Source: Anaeromyces robustus (lineage: Eukaryota > Neocallimastigomycota > Neocallimastigomycetes > Neocallimastigales > Neocallimastigaceae). From it: a stretch of 64,000 nt of DNA. Below are positions 34,043 through 61,529 of the stretch, piece after piece. Location of the stretch: contig MCFG01000096.1 in NCBI GenBank assembly GCA_002104895.1, forward strand, positions 119,672 to 183,671, written 5' to 3'. The notes beneath the pieces were generated by a model that worked only from the letters and a program-made list of their open reading frames with translations, searched no databases and was not told the DNA's origin. The number at the start of each line of letters is the position of its first letter. Position 1 is the stretch's first letter. The translations under genes were made by a program, and so were the position numbers.

Positions 34043-34886
34043 CTATTATTTTCTATTTTTAAAGATATTTTATACTTAATTTGTAATATTGTGATAATTA
34101 TAAAAAAAAAGAACAATTAACAAAAATGTATAGTGGTATAAATTGTATTTAAATTTTTTAATAATATTTTAATTAAAAAAAAAAAATGTAGATATTATAT
34201 ATATTATTAATTATTAATAAATATATACTTATATATATTACATATATATTTATTTTTTATCATACAACCTTTTTTGATTTTTTAATAATAATTAAATTAA
34301 TTATTAGTTAACAATTATTTTTAAAATAACAATAAAAAATATATATATTAAAAACAATAATATAAATAATAATTAAATAATTAAATAATTAAATAATTAA
34401 ATAATTAAATAATTAAATAACTAAAAGATAGGAATGTATTACATTAAAGTGAATTTGGATTTGTAAAAAACTCTCCATGAATATATTATATATTAATTTT
34501 ATATCCTTAATCCAAAATATTTTAAAAAATTTTTATGGTAATGTATCATTTATAAATATATAACATAAATATTCAACATACTTTTATATATATGATAAAT
34601 TAAACTTTAATTTTTAATTAAAAATCTGAGGGTTAAATGTATAATTAAAAAATTAAATTTTTGAATAATTAAAAAAAGTATCATCAAAATTTATATATGA
34701 AAAGGTATTTTTGAAATGACCATTTAAAAAACAAGAAAAATTATAATTACTTTTCTTATGTGTAAATTCATTAAAATATTAAAATGATATATTAATTTAT
34801 ATACTTAATGATATATTTTTAATTAAAAAAAAAATTATAAAATTATTATTGTTATATGTAATAATTCTTGATATAATAGAAGTAAA

Positions 34887-36096
34887 ATGAGCAATTTATT
34901 TTTGAATAGTCAGTTAAAACAAATACATGAGAATAAATATAAAAATATAAAGTAATTCTTTTATCAATACAATAATATCATTAAGTAAAATAATTTTTAC
35001 GAGTTAGCTTTTTTTTTTTCTTTCTTAATTTTACATATTATAAAATATTATTATTAATCTTTTTCTTAAAAATTAATAAAAGACCAATAATTGATACAGG
35101 ATGTTCTAAAACAAATTATAATAATTATTTAAGAGAAAAATTTAGAGGTACAAATAAATACATAAAATAATTATATATATATTAATTTAAAATACATAAT
35201 TATTAATTGTTTTTTAACATTATTTTATTTTCTATATATATATATATATACATTTTATAGACATGTTAATTAAGGAACATGAAGGTTTTAAAAGAATTAA
35301 AGTAAAATCATTAATTTTAATTATCGAAGATATAAATTCAATGATAGAACAATTAAATAATAATGATGAAGATGATATTACAAAGGAAATTAATTTGGAT
35401 AATCCAATATTACTATTAGATGTTAGGAATTCTCAAGATTATATGCAATAGTAAAGTACATTTTTTATAAAAAATAATACTTATTACTAAAGTTATACAT
35501 ATATTATATTATATTTTATTTATTAATTTTGTTTTAATGGATATTTATATTATTAATATTATTCTTTTTTTCTAAATATATAATACAAAATAAAAATTAT
35601 TAATTATTAATAATAAAAAATTTATAGTCATATAAAAGGAGGTATAAAAATATATTTATCAATTATTAATTATATTTATATAGACACAAATCTAAAATAA
35701 AAAATAAAAAAAAAAAATAAAAAAAAATTAAAATTCTATCAATTCAGCAATTAATTATCCACACACATATTTATTTCGTGGAGCAAATCAATATTCTAAT
35801 GAAATAATTAAATATAAAAATAAAAATGATAAATTAATTATTGTATATGACGAAAATGAAAGGTAAAAAAAGTAAAAATAAAATATATATATATATATGT
35901 AAAAAGATAAAGAAAAACTGTCAATGATATTAATAATATTTATATATATTAAATTATTATTTTTATCAATATATTCAAAGACTAGCTCAAAAAGTAGCTC
36001 AAGGATTAATGGAAAGAAATATTTTAAATTGTTTTATGTTTTCAGGAGGTATAATTCTTTTTCTTTTTCTTTTTCTTCTTCTTCTTCTTCTTCTTC

Positions 36097-36137
<41 letters not shown>

Positions 36138-37232
36138 ATAATATAAAATATTTTAAAAATATAATTAAAATACTTTGAAATATAATAAAATAAAAAAGAG
36201 AAATATAATATTGATAATAATAATTATACTATTAAATATCAATTTTAAATATATATATATATTCATTATATATTTTTATTCCTAATATTTATATACATAT
36301 ATATAAAGGGCTTATTGCAATGTTAAGAGAATATCCTGAATATATAGTAGGTAAAATTCCAGAAACAATTAAGGAAATTGTAACAGTAAGAAAAAATGTA
36401 AATGTAAGAAATGTTAATCTAGATAAAAAAATAGAAAATGACCATAAAATACTACTACAATCATCTTCTTTACTCGAGAATAATCATTCAAATAAAACTT
36501 CATCATCTATAAATTGTAATAATAACAATAGTAAAAATAATGATACCAATTTTACTACTACTATTATTAAACATAATCGTTCACCGTCTCAGGTATCACA
36601 TACTTCTTCAATTTCATCAAAATCTTCATATACCCAAAACTCTGAAAAAAGATTTGAAAGAATTACCTATTATCATGATTTAAAAAAACCACAACCCATT
36701 ACTGACCCTTTTGATATCCTTTATATATTTATTTATATTATTATTTATTATTATTTATTATTATTATAAGTATTATTTTTGGAATATATATAATATGTTA
36801 ATAATTTTTTATTTTATTTTATTTATTTTACTTTTTTATTTTGATTTCTTAAAATCATAAAATTACCTTAATTCTTTTATTATATTTATGCAATTCTATT
36901 TTTTTTTTTTTTTTTTTTTTTTTATTTTTGGACAATACATTTTTCAGTGATTAAAAAAAATATACCAATTGCTATAAGAAAAAATTCAGAAGAAAATCAA
37001 AAAAAATCAAAACTACTAAAAAAGATGTCTTCATCCTCTCCACCTTCATTAAATACAAATTATCATGGTAACTTATATAATTTAATATTTATATATTTAA
37101 TCAATAAAGTTTCAATATTTTTATTTATATTTTTTTTTATCTTATTTATATTAATGATTTAAAATAGCATTATGGAGAATTAAACCTAAACCTATAACTG
37201 AGAAAGTTACCAGAATGAATAATAAAAGATGA
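34887..37232 (+). CDS. CEP41: CEP41-like rhodanese-domain ciliary protein
   Basis: Nine exons: 34887-34951, 35083-35147, 35261-35450, 35628-35641, 35748-35862, 35981-36048, 36309-36713, 36939-37067, 37168-37232; about 371 residues, nearly the length of human CEP41. CEP41 localises to centrioles and cilia and promotes axonemal tubulin glutamylation. Seen are the N-terminal family motif PIIDTGCSKTNY, then GFKRIKVKSL, and a rhodanese domain at about 90-175: ILLLDVRNSQDY, HIKGAINYP, NQYSNEIIKYKN, LIIVYDENERLA, NCFMFSGGL. The catalytic cysteine position in VYDENERLA is Asp, as in animal CEP41, so sulfurtransferase activity is unlikely. Exon 4 is a 14-base microexon encoding HIKG. Intron 7 lacks a GT donor and fits an AT-AC (U12-like) intron; an acceptor nine bases downstream (36948) is also in frame. 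Confidence 0.85.
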
Positions 37233-52869: not shown

Positions 52870-53878
52870 CATTTATTATTATTAAAATAATTAATTTATT
52901 CATTCATTCATTTATTTTTTTAAAATTAAATAAATAATTTAATTATTTTAGTTTAAAAATAATTAAAAAAAAAAAAAATTTAATATAAATAAAAAAAAAA
53001 TTTCAATTACTATGAAATTTAATTTTTTTTATATATTATTTGTTTTATATTGTTTTATTTAATTAATACAAAATACAACATAACCAAAATTGAATTATAT
53101 TATTCATTGAATTATTTATTATTTAATTATTATATAGGATTAAATATATATAAAATTTTATATTTTAAAATACCAAGTTCTTTTCCTTTTCTTTCTTTCT
53201 TTCTTTCTTTTTTTTCTTTCTTTTTTATTTTTTTAAAATTTTAAAATGAAATAAAATAATAAATTTCAATTAAAATAAAATTGAAATTTTAAAAAAAAAA
53301 AATAAAATAAAATAAATAAATAACTATAAATAATATAAATATGTGAATAAAAACAAATATATTTAAATAAATAAGTAAATATATTAAATTATATATATTA
53401 TATCAATTAGGATAGAGATATTATATATAAAAAAGTAAAGTAAAAATATCAAAAAAGCTTATCTATATTTAATAAAATATATATATTTAAATATTTTAAA
53501 ATAATATACGTATAGTATATGCACGTATTTTAAAATGGAAAAAATATAAATAAAATAAAATAGTAATAATGATAAAAAAAAAAAAGTATCTAAATATTTT
53601 AAATTGAAAAAATAAAAAATAATAAAATATAAAAAACATTAAAAATAGTTATTTTATAGTATATAAAGAAAAAAAAAATATTATTTTACATTTTAATAAT
53701 GGTTTTTTCCTTTTTATATTTTTTAATAAAAAAAGTTTAAATACTCTAAAAATAATATACTTTAATATATTTTAATATCATTAATAATAAAGGTGAAAAT
53801 AGATAAAAAAGGAATTAAAATTAAGAAAATAATTATTACAAGGAAACAGTAAAAAAAAAAAAATACATATATAAAAAG
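51605..53878. other. Intergenic region
   Basis: No gene is supported between PFS2 and the first ankyrin gene. There are short ATTT (52836-52868) and CTTT (53192-53210) arrays and many A/T runs. The small open frame at 53050-53244 is low-complexity and not called. Confidence 0.6.
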
Positions 53879-55882
53879 ATGAATGAAACAAATATAGTAA
53901 TAAAATTACTAACTGAAGAAGTTTCAATACAGAATTTTATTACATTATATTATTATAATAATTTAAGTATTAATAAAATTAATAATGAATCATTTGATGT
54001 CTTAATATATTCCATAGAAAATAGTATAAATAATGAAATCATTGAGTTTTTTATTAATCAATATAATAATTTAAATTATGAGTTTACAAAAAATCAAATT
54101 CCACTTTTTATGGTATTAGAAAGGGAAAATTATTATATTGCTAATAAATTAATAGAAAAAGGTGCTGACATCAATTTTAGAAACAAAGATGGCGACAATG
54201 TTCTTTTTTATCTTTATCAAAATAAATTATTAAATAGAAAAATTTTACGTTATATTATATCTAAAAGAATTCATATTAATAGTAAAGACAGAATAGGATA
54301 TAATATTATATGTTATTTCATTGAAAATGGAAATGAGGACTTGTTAAATTATATTTTTGAGTATTTTACGTATAATATACATTTTGTATTGAAATGTTTA
54401 ACAGCTTATAAAAACAAAATAGGTATGAGTTCTTATGAAATAATTCTTTGGATGAATAAAGATAAAGGTAAACTAAAAATATCTGAAACCATGATAAAAT
54501 TAGCTACTGAACATTGGAATATCAATATAATAAGTAATATAATATTTTTTCGTTTTAATTTACCACTACTTAAACTTTACAATAGAAATAATATTCTTCC
54601 AAAAGTTACTGAATATAATCAAATTCACCTTGTGAAATATCTTGTTTATAATGGGGCATACATTAATAAAAGAGATCAGGATGGTAATACTTCTTTAATA
54701 ATCGCTGCAAAAAATGGTAATTATGATATTGTCAAATTTTTAGTGGATGAAAAAGCTCAAGTAAATAAAGTAAATAATATTGGTTATACCCCTTTAATGT
54801 ATGCTTCTCAAAATGGATTTTATTCTATTGTTCAATATTTATTAAATAATGGTGCTGATGTTAATTTGAAAAGTAAAGGAGATATAGAAAATGAAGAAGA
54901 AAATATTCAAGATATTAATATTAATGCTCCAAAAATAAGTTTAGTATCTCAAATTAAAGATCAAAGTAAAAAAATTTTTGGAACTGTAGAAAATGGTTGT
55001 TCCGCATTAATGTGTGCTGCTAAGAATGGTCATTTAAAAATTATTCAAAAACTTTGTGATCAAGGAGCTTTTATTAAAGAAAAAAATAATCAAGGTTGTA
55101 ATGCATTAATGATTGCTGCTGAAAATGGTCATTTAGATGTGATTCAATATCTTCATGAAAGGGGACTTAGTTTTCATGGGAAAAATAAAGAAAAAAAGAC
55201 AGCACTAATATTAGCTGCTCAAAATGGACATCTATCTGTAGTAAAATATTTAATAGAACAAGGTGTTAATATTCATAAAAGAGACATATATGATAAAAAT
55301 GCTTTTGTTTATGCTTGTCAAATGGGTTATAGAGATATTTTAGAGTATCTTGATGAAAGTAGTTCAAAAAATTTTATTCAAAAAATAGAATCAATGCCAA
55401 TATCAAGTTCAAATTCATTAAAATTAAAATTAAAATCAAAGTCAAAATCAATAACAAAATTAATATCACAATCTATATCAAGTTCAATACAAAAATCGAA
55501 ATTAAAATTACAATCAAAATTAAAATTTAATTCAAAATCATCAAAAAATAAAGAAATGGGATTGATGTTGGCAGCTTTTAATGGTCATTTAGATATTATA
55601 CAATATTTATATGAAAGAGGTACAAAATTAAATTGTGAAAGTAAACAAGGTGAAACACCATTAATATTAGCTTGTATGGGGGGTCACTTAAAGGTAGTTA
55701 AATTTTTATATAGTCATGGGTTAAATATTAAAGAAGGATATAAGAATAGAAAAACAGCATTAATGTATGCTTGGATAAATGGTCATTTAGATATTATTGA
55801 ATTTTTATATGAACATGATGTTCGACTTTTCCCATTTGAAAGTACTAATAATAATAAAAATAATTGCCCTTCTATTAACTAA
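53879..55882 (+). CDS. Ankyrin-repeat protein, 667 residues
   Basis: Intronless gene. At least nine recognisable ankyrin repeats occur, with degenerate ones near residues 75-115, clearer ones at about 245-335, a block of four at 370-500 and three more at 560-650. Typical units are GNTSLIIAAKNGNYDIVKFL, CSALMCAAKNGHLKIIQ and ETPLILACMGGHLKVVKFL. Between the last blocks lies a Lys/Ser/Leu-rich linker (about 508-558) containing LKLKLKSKSKS. There is no signal peptide, membrane segment, kinase or BTB domain. Ankyrin repeats mediate protein binding, so no specific role can be given. The N-terminal portion shares the KNxxIPLF motif and layout with the next gene, suggesting tandem paralogues. Confidence 0.85.
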   Translation: MNETNIVIKLLTEEVSIQNFITLYYYNNLSINKINNESFDVLIYSIENSINNEIIEFFINQYNNLNYEFTKNQIPLFMVLERENYYIANKLIEKGADINFRNKDGDNVLFYLYQNKLLNRKILRYIISKRIHINSKDRIGYNIICYFIENGNEDLLNYIFEYFTYNIHFVLKCLTAYKNKIGMSSYEIILWMNKDKGKLKISETMIKLATEHWNINIISNIIFFRFNLPLLKLYNRNNILPKVTEYNQIHLVKYLVYNGAYINKRDQDGNTSLIIAAKNGNYDIVKFLVDEKAQVNKVNNIGYTPLMYASQNGFYSIVQYLLNNGADVNLKSKGDIENEEENIQDININAPKISLVSQIKDQSKKIFGTVENGCSALMCAAKNGHLKIIQKLCDQGAFIKEKNNQGCNALMIAAENGHLDVIQYLHERGLSFHGKNKEKKTALILAAQNGHLSVVKYLIEQGVNIHKRDIYDKNAFVYACQMGYRDILEYLDESSSKNFIQKIESMPISSSNSLKLKLKSKSKSITKLISQSISSSIQKSKLKLQSKLKFNSKSSKNKEMGLMLAAFNGHLDIIQYLYERGTKLNCESKQGETPLILACMGGHLKVVKFLYSHGLNIKEGYKNRKTALMYAWINGHLDIIEFLYEHDVRLFPFESTNNNKNNCPSIN

Positions 55883-57223: not shown

Positions 57224-57359
57224 AAAGAAATCATATAAAAGATAATAATAGTAAAAGGAAAAGAAAAGAAAAATAATTTAGAAATAAATATTTTAAAAAC
57301 TTAAAAAAAAAATAAATAAAAAAAAAAAGGGAAGAAATAAAAATAAAAATTAATGAAAA
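55883..57359. other. Intergenic region between ankyrin paralogues
   Basis: No gene is seen. It has long A-runs (56273-56300, 56521-56543, 57190-57221) and an A/G-rich leader before the ATG at 57360. Minus-strand open frames here are low-complexity and not called. Confidence 0.6.
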
Positions 57360-59222
57360 ATGGCGGATGATAACGAGTCTAATAATTCAAAATTAAATAA
57401 AGTTGATAATGAACTTTTGAATCAACGTGAACTTAATAAAAAATTAATTTTATATATTCTTGATAATAAGCGAGAAAAATTCATAATTAATTATAAAGAG
57501 AAATCTGGTGTAGATATTAATTATTGTAAAGATGAATATAATCCATTATTTCAAATATTAATGTATTATAAAGCAGTTGAAGCAAATACTAAATATATAT
57601 CTTTATTGGCATCTCTTGGTGCTAACTTTAATATTGTATTGAAAAATAAAAAGATACCGTTATTTGAAATATTAAATTTGGGTTTAATATCTATTAAAGC
57701 ATTAATTATAGCTAAAGAAAGTGGTGCAGATATGTATCAACGTGATTGTAAAGGAAATAATTTGTTAATGCATGCTATTGAATCTAAAATGAATATTGAT
57801 ATTATTTATTATTTATTTTCTTTAAATTATGATTTAAATGAACAAGATAATGAAGGAAATACTATCTATATGAAAGCCGTCATGACTTATGAGCCATTTA
57901 CATATGATAAGGTACTACCATTTTTAATAGAAAATTTTATTTATAATAACGATACTATTATCAATTTTATTCTTATGGGTAAAAATAAGAAACCAGCTGA
58001 TAATGACACTCTAAGAAATATTATTAAATCTCATAACTTTATAATTAATATAAAAAATAATGAAGGTGATAATCCTCTAACAGTAGCAGTAAGAAAAAAA
58101 TTGAACTATAAAATTTTAGATATGTTAATTAACATAGGAGGAAATGTTGATACACAAGATTATAATGGTAATAGTTTAATCATGCTATCTGCTCAGTACA
58201 ATAGTTTTAGAAGTTTTATATATTTATTAAGATATTTTCCTGACTTGAGTATAAAAAATAATAATAATGATACAATATTAATCATAGCTGCTAGAAATAA
58301 CAGTTTAGAAATAGTGAAAATTTTATTATATGTTTTTGGTCCTATAAATCAACCATATCATAAAATTAGTAAAAAGGAAGTTCATTATTTTTTACATAAT
58401 CCATATATAAATAATTTAAGAACTCATTATGAATTAAAGAAAAATACTTTTTATAATTCATCAACATCAAATCTATTAAGTATTAAGAAAAAAAATAAAA
58501 ATAAACCTTATGAAAGAAGTTATTCATCACCTCCAACATCATCAATACCAATATCAACACCAAAAGAAGTATTATGTTTTGAAAATTCTTTAAGTAAAAA
58601 AAATATTAAAAAATCTCCTACCTATGTCGAGGTAAATGAAAAAAATAACGATGGAGATACCGCATTAATGGTGGCTATTAAAAGCAAAAATCAAAGCATA
58701 ATACACCATTTGATTGCAAGTGGTGCTAATATTAATGTAATAAATAATAATAATGAAACACCATTAATGCTATCAATTTTATCATACGATAAGAAAATAT
58801 TTAATTTAATTTTAGAAAATCAAAATCAAAATTCAATTAATTTTATTAATAAAAATAAGGAAACAGCATTAATGATTGCTATAAATAATAATTTAGGTTA
58901 CTGTGTTGAAAAATTATTAGAAAAAGGTGCTGATATTACCATTAAAGATAGTAATTATCGTACTCCAATTATGAATGCTTCTATTTATTTAATACCAATA
59001 ACCAGTATTTTAAAATATGAAAATAATACAATTAATATGAGAGAAAAAAATGGTAAAACTGCATTATTATTAGCAATTGAAAATCAAAATATTTTAAATT
59101 CAAAAATTTTATTAAAATATGGTGCAGAATTATCGGTTGTTGATAATAAGAAGAACAATGCTTTAATGATTGCTTGTAAAGTAGGATCAATTGAAATTGT
59201 AAATTTTATTTTATCATTAATA

Positions 59223-59294
<72 letters not shown>

Positions 59295-59316
59295 CATAAT
59301 AATAATAATAATAATC

Positions 59317-59389
<73 letters not shown>

Positions 59390-59391
59390 GA

Positions 59392-59449
<58 letters not shown>

Positions 59450-61529
59450 GAGTAATGATAAAAAAATTCATATTGATGATCAAAATGAAAATTTAAATAC
59501 TGCTTTAATGAAAGCATGTAAATATGGACATGAAGAAATTGTTAAACTTTTAATAGATAATAATGCTAATTTAGAATTAAAAAATAAGGATGGGAATACA
59601 GCATTACTTATTGCATGTCAGAATAATCAACAAAAAATTATAAAACTTTTATTAAAAGCAAGAGCAAATATTAATTGTTATAATAATAATTTTATCAATC
59701 CTATTATAGAGTTATGTAATAATAATGAAGATGAATCATATAAATTAATTAAAAATTTAATTGCTTATAGTCCAGAAAAACTTCAATTAAATTATAATCA
59801 TCAATATCAATCATTCATAAAGAAAAATATGGATAAATGCTTTATAACAATGATTGAAAAAGGACAATATCATTTTGTTACATATTTTTTAAATAATGGA
59901 TATATTTTGGATATTTCAAATAGGAATAGTAATTTTCGTAAACTTTTATCTTCACTAATTAATTCTTTTAAAAGTGGTTTTTATAAGGTTGTTGAATTAA
60001 TTTTAAGTCAAGAACAGTTTAATGAAGTGTTATTAGAATTTTGTCAATCTGACGCTTTAATTTATGCATGTAAAATTGTGGATAAAAAAGGAATAGAATT
60101 ATTATTAAATTTTGATTTTAATGTAAATTCAAAAGATAAATTAGGAAATACCCCTTTAATCGAAGCTTCTAAAAAATTTTCACTTATTGAATATATTAAA
60201 GAATTTATTAAAAGAGGTGCAAATGTTAATGCTATTAATAATGAAGGTGAATCAGCTTTTTTAAATAGTTGTAAAATTAAAAATAATAATATTTTCAAAT
60301 GTTTAATTGATAATAATGCCGATATTTATATTTCAGATAACAAAGGAAATAATGCTTTAATATATTCGTCTTGTAGTGGTGTAATTGAAAAGATGAAATA
60401 TTTATTAAATAATAAAATTAATATCGATTCCGTTAATAATGATGGTGATTCTTCTTTAATACAAGCTATAAATGCAGATAAAATAGAAAGTATAAAATTT
60501 TTAATTTCTCATGATGCAGATGTAAATATAATAAATGAGAAACAACAAACTGCATTAAATATTGCATGTATAAAAGGATTTGATAAAGAAATAAATGTTG
60601 AGTATGCCTCTATAATAAAATCTTTAATTCAAAAAAATTCCAATCCAAATGTACCTATAGATGAATTTGGTAATACTATTTTAATGTATTTCATTATGAA
60701 AGACATTACAAGTATGGCAAAATATATAATAGAAAATGCCAAAGAACTTGATATTAATAAAAAGAATAATTTAGGTCATAATGCTTTTACCTATTCTTTA
60801 AAATATAAAAATGAAGAAATTATACAATGTCTATTATCAAAAGGAATTGATATTCGAACGGAAGATGATTATGGTAATGATATGGTAATGTATACAATTT
60901 GTTCCCTTAATATTGATTTTTTTTTTGAATTTGCAAAAATGTTAAGTAAAGAAGAAATTAATAATAATTGTAATCATAATCGAGAAACCTATTTAATTAT
61001 GGCATCTAAACATAATAATGAAAAAGTAATTGATTATTTATTAAAAGAAGGGGAAAATATTAATTATCAAAATTCAGAAGGTAATACAGCATTACATTAT
61101 GCTTCATGTCAAGGTAATATAGAAACCATGGAAAAATTAATTAAGCATCAAGCAGATATTGAAATTCAAAATTATTTCCATGAAACACCAATGATGGTAG
61201 CCTGTCGTTTTAAACAAAGGGAAGCTATAAAATGTTTATTAAATCATCATGCCAATACAAGTTTTATAGATATTTATCTTTATAGATCTTATTTATCCTA
61301 TGAATTTAAAAATAAAGAACAAGATGAATACATATATATGATCATGAAAAAATATGAAGAAATTTCAGAACCTACAACTGAATATTATATGACAACTCGA
61401 ACCTTAATTGAACGTATGAGAGTATTTTATAATCGACCAATTTATAAAGATCGGTATAATAATATAGAAAAAATACTTAAAGAAGGATTTGAAGAAATTG
61501 TTGATATGGTTATGGATTCTATTTCATAA
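57360..61529 (+). CDS. Large ankyrin-repeat protein with Asn tract, 1389 residues
   Basis: Intronless gene. Ankyrin repeats run almost from end to end, about 20-25 units of varying quality. Clear examples are DGDTALMVAIKSKNQSIIHH, NLNTALMKACKYGHEEIVKL, DGNTALLIACQNNQQKIIKL and GNTALHYASCQGNIETMEKL. The series is split by a basic Ser/Pro-rich insert near residues 370-420 and by a tract of about 80 residues at 621-699 that is nearly all Asn, with rare His, Ser and Lys. The last 80 residues lack repeats and end in a helical segment. No enzyme domain, signal peptide or membrane segment is visible. It is probably an intracellular scaffold, with function unknown. It lies head-to-tail with a related gene upstream. 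Confidence 0.87.
59219..59455 (+). repeat. Coding AAT array (polyasparagine)
   Basis: About 235 bases of AAT units with CAT and AGT interruptions, in frame inside the large ankyrin gene. Tyr-, Ile- and Asp-rich frames on the opposite strand are artefacts of it. Confidence 0.95.

Follow-up and report, generated by a model that had tools for sequence, protein, structure and literature searches.

The sequence at 36714-36938 of the window (the whole 64-kb stretch of DNA analyzed) is very probably a U12-type AT-AC intron of a CEP41 gene, as an earlier note on this DNA had proposed. The sequence shows the splice signals and a coding edge, the genome of the window (70.2 Mb in 769 contigs) holds snRNA genes as well as conserved genes with sister introns, and the interpretation is supported by the minor-spliceosome snRNAs in the genome and by 16 further accepted AT-AC introns. 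Minor introns are removed by a second spliceosome that has been lost from many fungi. The intron would add a cilium gene to this genome's minor introns, and a gene finder assuming GT-AG termini would misread the CEP41 gene.

CEP41 gene model and coding edge

The CEP41 exons from 35084-35147 through 37168-37232 were joined in a single frame whose sole stop is the terminal one. The joined protein matched the solved chain 11yj_Y0 (Centrosomal protein of 41 kDa; E 1.3e-29) in an alignment that covers the rhodanese domain and, weakly, the N-terminus, and it also matched Pfam Rhodanese (44.9 bits). All introns of the model besides 36714-36938 are GT-AG. The features of the gene and of the candidate intron are listed below.

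35084..35147, + strand: N-terminal CEP41 exon, partial (frame shared with the next exon when ended at 35147; weak second stretch of the 11yj_Y0 match)
35261..35450, + strand: CEP41 exon with GT-AG introns on both sides (continuous frame; matches 11yj_Y0)
35628..35641, + strand: 14-nt CEP41 micro-exon of the rhodanese domain (within the stretch DYMQYHIKGAINYP aligned to 11yj_Y0)
35748..35862, + strand: CEP41 exon of the rhodanese domain (11yj_Y0 match and frame; Pfam Rhodanese on the joined protein)
35981..36048, + strand: CEP41 exon (11yj_Y0 match and frame)
36309..36713, + strand: CEP41 exon upstream of the candidate intron, end G/ATATCC (coding edge at about 36713)
36714..36938, + strand: candidate U12-type AT-AC intron, 225 nt, 8.9% GC (splice signals, coding edge, same signals in 16 other accepted introns)
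36714..36722, + strand: candidate U12-type 5' splice site ATATCCTTT (sequence; at the coding edge)
36864..36872, + strand: candidate U12-type branch site TACCTTAAT (8/9 to TTCCTTAAY, one mismatch; 66 nt to the intron end)
36899..36923, + strand: run of 25 T between branch site and AC (sequence)
36937..36938, + strand: candidate 3' splice site AC, AATAC/ATTTTT (first YAC downstream of the branch site)
36946..36947, + strand: alternative in-frame AG, giving an AT-AG version (frame)
36939..37067, + strand: CEP41 exon downstream of the candidate intron, end CATG/gtaact (open frame into the next exon)
37168..37232, + strand: last CEP41 exon, ending ALWRIKPKPITEKVTRMNNKR and a stop (frame)

The window has a GC content of 10-23% per 2 kb, and an Rfam search of it gave no match. 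It also contains two long open frames full of ankyrin repeats at 53825-55879 and 57357-61526 (685 and 1390 aa).

The exon upstream of the candidate intron reads ...RFERITYYHDLKKPQPITDPF-G and ends at 36713, one base into a codon, with ATATCCTTT directly after it; the shorter form of the same motif, ATATCCTT, occupies 36714-36721 and is extended by one base to 36722. The textbook U12 5' splice site that had been described here is present and in the right phase for both the AC and the AG. With the AC at 36937-36938 the frame resumes as D-F-S-V-I-K-K, in agreement with the previous reading, and the AG at 36946-36947 is likewise in frame as V-I-K-K, while an earlier AC at 36932-36933 leads to a stop after five residues. 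Read-through of the exon meets an in-frame TAA at 36767-36769. The earlier note had stated that no usable GT donor precedes this stop, which held in part: the GTs nearest the candidate donor start at 36593 (the last in the exon) and at 36770 with none starting in 36594-36769, but those at 36351 and 36531 are phase-compatible with the AG and the statement needs the exon to be kept to its end.

Coding potential was scored by codon log-odds trained on the other long ORFs of the window, with positions printed from 36641 on. Among these positions the cumulative score peaked at the codon 36713-36715 (57.0; 56.8 at 36707), and because neighboring codon scores are close, the coding edge near 36713 is placed only to within a few codons. 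The stretch 36872-36946 scored -24.8 and 36947-37066 scored +14.2. A reading in which the major spliceosome joins one of the in-exon GTs (36531 or 36351) to the AG ending at 36947, with the rest up to 36713 being intronic or belonging to an alternative isoform that terminates in the AT-rich extension, draws on the phase of both GTs, which like 36714 fall after the first base of a codon. It is highly improbable, as 36533-36712 is coding-like in the frame of the gene (+27.1, against -11.0 and -21.1 in the other two frames, both with stops) and the coding edge coincides with the U12 donor. More improbable still is that the gene ends or is broken at this point, with its C-terminus in the extension or as a pseudogene or assembly error, leaving the downstream exons unjoined; the frame does continue to the stop at 36767, but the extension past 36713 (36713-36766) scores -12.6 and the exons beyond it look like coding sequence in the shared frame. 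The CEP41 region was not found a second time in the 70.2-Mb genome, where the other 111 of 112 matches fell mostly in the AT-rich part of the locus.

The U12-type intron reading is supported by the scarcity of its motifs at the required positions. The expected count of ATATCCTTT in the 80-nt donor stretch was 0.002-0.003 and that of TWCCTTAAY in 225 nt was 0.007-0.012, on motif rates taken from only 2-7 occurrences that include CEP41's own sites. Over the 64-kb window RTATCCTT was without enrichment (8 observed vs 7.68 expected), as anticipated from the chance copies described previously, of which those on the + strand start at 34501 and 38073 rather than at 34499 and 38072.

In the mechanism proposed, the minor spliceosome would recognize AUAUCCUUU as donor and UACCUUAAU as branch site in the pre-mRNA, the former through U11 and U6atac and the latter through pairing with U12. 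Splicing of the exon ...ITDPF-G to AUUUUUCAG... would then yield ...ITDPFDFSVIKKN.... We infer from the DNA both that splicing occurs at all and that the minor spliceosome removes 36714-36938 with the AC used over the AG.

Sister AT-AC introns, spacing, and termini

A first genome search used RTATCCTTT followed after 31-91 nt by TTCCTTAAY, permitting G at the first base, and the reversed pattern as control. It returned 22 matches vs four in the control, with A as the first base in 22/22 and G in none, and 11 of the 22 were accepted as introns on the basis of two coding stretches joined in frame through AC; all 11 are AT-AC. The dropped matches were coding-like, in repeats, or had no coding edge (L042, L043, L047, L048, L051, L054, L056, L059, L061, and L063), and L055 was left out of the intron count as undecided. 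A second search at the CEP41 spacing (111-171 nt, TWCCTTAAY) gave eight matches vs four in the control; the eight were five further introns, that of CEP41, and two matches dropped as coding (L070 and L077). In total, 16 AT-AC introns of 101-279 nt were accepted besides CEP41; all of them carry ATATCCTTT, which was a requirement of the search patterns. Each AC was selected for its fit to the frame, either by score or, for L046, L058, L060, and L071-L075, by eye and then checked; the downstream exon of L044 scored -3.6.

Similarity to a known protein spans the junction in seven of the 16 sister introns (L049, L057, L058, L060, L062, L073, and L074). Pfam domains crossing junctions were ATG9 (75.3 bits), XPG_N (112.1), TTL (39.3), and FH2 of formin (37.5), together with PTCB-BRCT in L073 (59.8 bits) and BRCT in L074 (33.5). 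Solved RAD2 and ATG9 chains also aligned across junctions, as did CDK chains in L049 (best E 5.2e-11), whose 42-residue piece was without a Pfam match; for the TTL-like L062 no solved chain matched. Pfam matches were absent for L044 and L046, and in L050 an RRM was matched only upstream of the junction. L045, L052, L053, L071, and L072 were accepted on coding continuity and L075 on its paralog L062.

Two pairs of these introns are close neighbors. L062 and L075 lie about 9 kb apart on contig C759 in neighboring TTL-like genes with the same donor, branch site, AC, and intron position, their introns measuring 119 and 165 nt and their exon flanks differing at 4/45 and 6/90 bases. L073 and L074 lie about 4 kb apart on contig C667 as two AT-AC introns that are both inside BRCT domains and possibly in one gene.

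The spacing, measured from the last base of the branch nonamer to that of the intron, varied widely among the sister introns (in nt: L044 36, L045 74, L046 39, L049 33, L050 37, L052 24, L053 84, L057 9, L058 171, L060 12, L062 12, L071 119, L072 71, L073 11, L074 53, L075 12). The longest belongs to L058, an AT-AC intron that interrupts an XPG/RAD2 N-terminal domain and has its full branch motif at this distance of 171 nt. For CEP41, a branch-like CCTTAAT about 66 bases from the AC had been noted; the 66 nt were confirmed and the element was refined to the nonamer TACCTTAAT. The description of this distance as farther than usual holds when it is compared with the reported optimum of 11-13 nt between branch site and 3' splice site (PMC3584512), but not within this genome, where sister spacing ranges over 9-171 nt and exceeds 50 nt in 6/16, so that the CEP41 value is not odd. 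Short spacing is typical rather than defining, and this rule, from which CEP41 departs with its 66 nt, seems to be relaxed in this genome. Part of the CEP41 distance is accounted for by the 25-T run, which may have been lengthened by slippage. Within 41 nt of the intron end the best branch-site match was 6/9 in CEP41 and 6 or 7 of 9 in L045, L053, and L058, and the long-spaced introns may instead use a poorer branch site closer to the AC.

The same U12-type intron could instead end at the AG (36714-36947), as an AT-AG intron with a product three codons shorter. This ending is unlikely, although it is in frame with a downstream codon score of 7.6 vs 6.3 for the AC version and the AG at 36946-36947 resembles a major-type 3' site in coming after T-rich sequence. 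An AG was sought in the sister introns from the branch site to 40 nt past the AC, and none was in frame in seven of the 16 (L044, L049, L050, L057, L071, L072, and L073), while that of L060 meets a stop at once. An in-frame AG is present in the other eight, but in L058 its use would delete 11 residues aligning to RAD2. The AT-AG combination is also described as disfavored in a review (PMC3584512). GT-AG is the commoner minor subtype in most species (PMC10639083). The AG survey of the 16 introns and the lack of any G-start among the 22 matches favor an intron end at the AC at 36938.

Minor-spliceosome snRNAs and an altered U6atac

The earlier note had named U11, U12, U4atac, and U6atac snRNAs and the minor-spliceosome proteins as a test of the intron, and components of this machinery are present in the genome. 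U6atac was found at full length with 61.5 bits (Rfam cut-off 33; L001 1501-1648, - strand) on scoring 46 of 1013 family candidates, and it was not found in viral and prokaryote contigs. U12 reached 57.4 bits (cut-off 53) and retains GUAAGGAU for branch-site pairing. The U4atac match lies below its cut-off (40.4 bits vs 53), and the U4atac and U6atac of the genome can form 14 consecutive pairs. U11 was not found among the 39 of 6831 candidates scored, nor was the U11-48K zinc finger in a search of the genome.

The AAGGA element of U6atac pairs with UCCUU of the donor, and Incorvaia and Padgett reportedly showed in 1998 that U6atac-donor pairing is required in vivo. The U6atac at L001 reads GUGUUGUAUGAGCCGAGAGA vs the Rfam consensus GUGUUGUAUGAAAGGAGAGA, such that GCCGA replaces AAGGA with three bases changed. 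The accepted introns keep the UCCUU donor ATATCCTTT despite GCCGA in the sole U6atac found, and GCCGA is not expected to pair in the normal way with UCCUU. The predicted pairing of the L001 U6atac was -2.0 kcal/mol with AUAUCCUUUA and -12.2 kcal/mol with the hypothetical AUAUCGGCUC, compared to a predicted -6.4 kcal/mol for human U6atac with AUAUCCUUUA.

A donor changed to match the altered element was not supported. The pattern RTATCGGCT combined with a branch site 20-50 nt downstream gave no match, but the control also gave none, which makes this result weak in isolation. Alone, it gave 110 matches vs 49 for the reversed control, and the 30 of the 110 loci inspected by eye (L012-L041) were mainly coding-like and often ankyrin repeats read backwards, with AT-rich sequence downstream in L013, L016, L030, and L035. 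The excess over the reversed control is apparently due to ankyrin-repeat coding sequence, and both copies of RTATCGGC in the window are inside open coding stretches. CGGCU donors at introns were not found among the 30/110 sites inspected, four of which are unsettled. A second U6atac was likewise not found, either via the U4atac-pairing stretch (six places vs nine in the control; two of the six are the U6atac and U4atac already described, and four lack an Rfam match) or via TATGAAAGGAGAGA with one mismatch (20 matches, none of them canonical or with the U4atac-pairing motif downstream, vs 18 in the control).

Either L001 is a decayed copy and the assembly lacks the true U6atac, or the donor is read independently of U6atac pairing. 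The intact U4atac pairing would favor L001 as a working gene. It is possible, if doubtful, that AT-AC introns are removed here by the minor spliceosome even though standard pairing does not let the sole U6atac (GCCGA vs UCCUU) read their donors, with U11, proteins, or a shifted pairing reading the donor instead; along with the AT-AC-only termini and variable spacing, this would amount to a rewired minor spliceosome. If RNA data confirm it, the U6atac-donor pairing requirement would not be universal and such organisms would provide a natural experiment on the role of this pairing.

Several observations count against a U12-type AT-AC intron in CEP41, namely the single mismatch in the branch nonamer and its 66 nt, far from the 11-13 nt optimum, the eight vs four matches of the motif pair alone at the CEP41 spacing, and the nine of 16 sister introns without protein similarity across the junction. 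To these are added the position of the CEP41 junction outside the part aligned to the solved CEP41 chain, the mismatch of the only U6atac found to UCCUU at its donor-reading element, and the negative searches for U11, among 39 of 6831 candidates scored, and for the U11-48K zinc finger.

Comparison with known minor introns

Minor introns have been reported in the Neocallimastigomycetes Piromyces finnis and Neocallimastix californiae (PMC10639083), which, if that is the lineage, weakens the earlier suggestion that a minor spliceosome in it would be notable. The low GC content, the size of the genome, and the presence of a cilium gene point to a probable anaerobic fungus (Neocallimastigomycota). 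In the available part of that source they are reported without termini, spacing, or U6atac sequence. Literature on the minor spliceosome in anaerobic fungi was not found, and for U6atac in Neocallimastigomycetes the search returned only PMC10639083. Human CEP41 was named a minor intron-containing gene in a 2026 paper (PMC13216214); the gene is the same, while the intron positions are not comparable, the junction here being outside the aligned part of the solved chain.

The U12-type AT-AC introns of animals, plants, and early-branching fungi are alike with those described here in the ATATCCTTT donor, the CCTTAAY branch site, the AC end, and the U12 and U6atac in the genome. They differ in the branch-site distance, which is 66 nt in CEP41 with the T-run in between (9-171 nt in the other 16) against the 11-13 nt given as optimal (PMC3584512). 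The minor introns of Blastocystis (PMC10639083) display the same AT-AC bias, with 196/253 there compared to 11/11 accepted from the first search here, and average just under 42 bp against 101-279 nt for the 16 introns in this genome. The CEP41 intron would join a kind already reported, probably in the same lineage.
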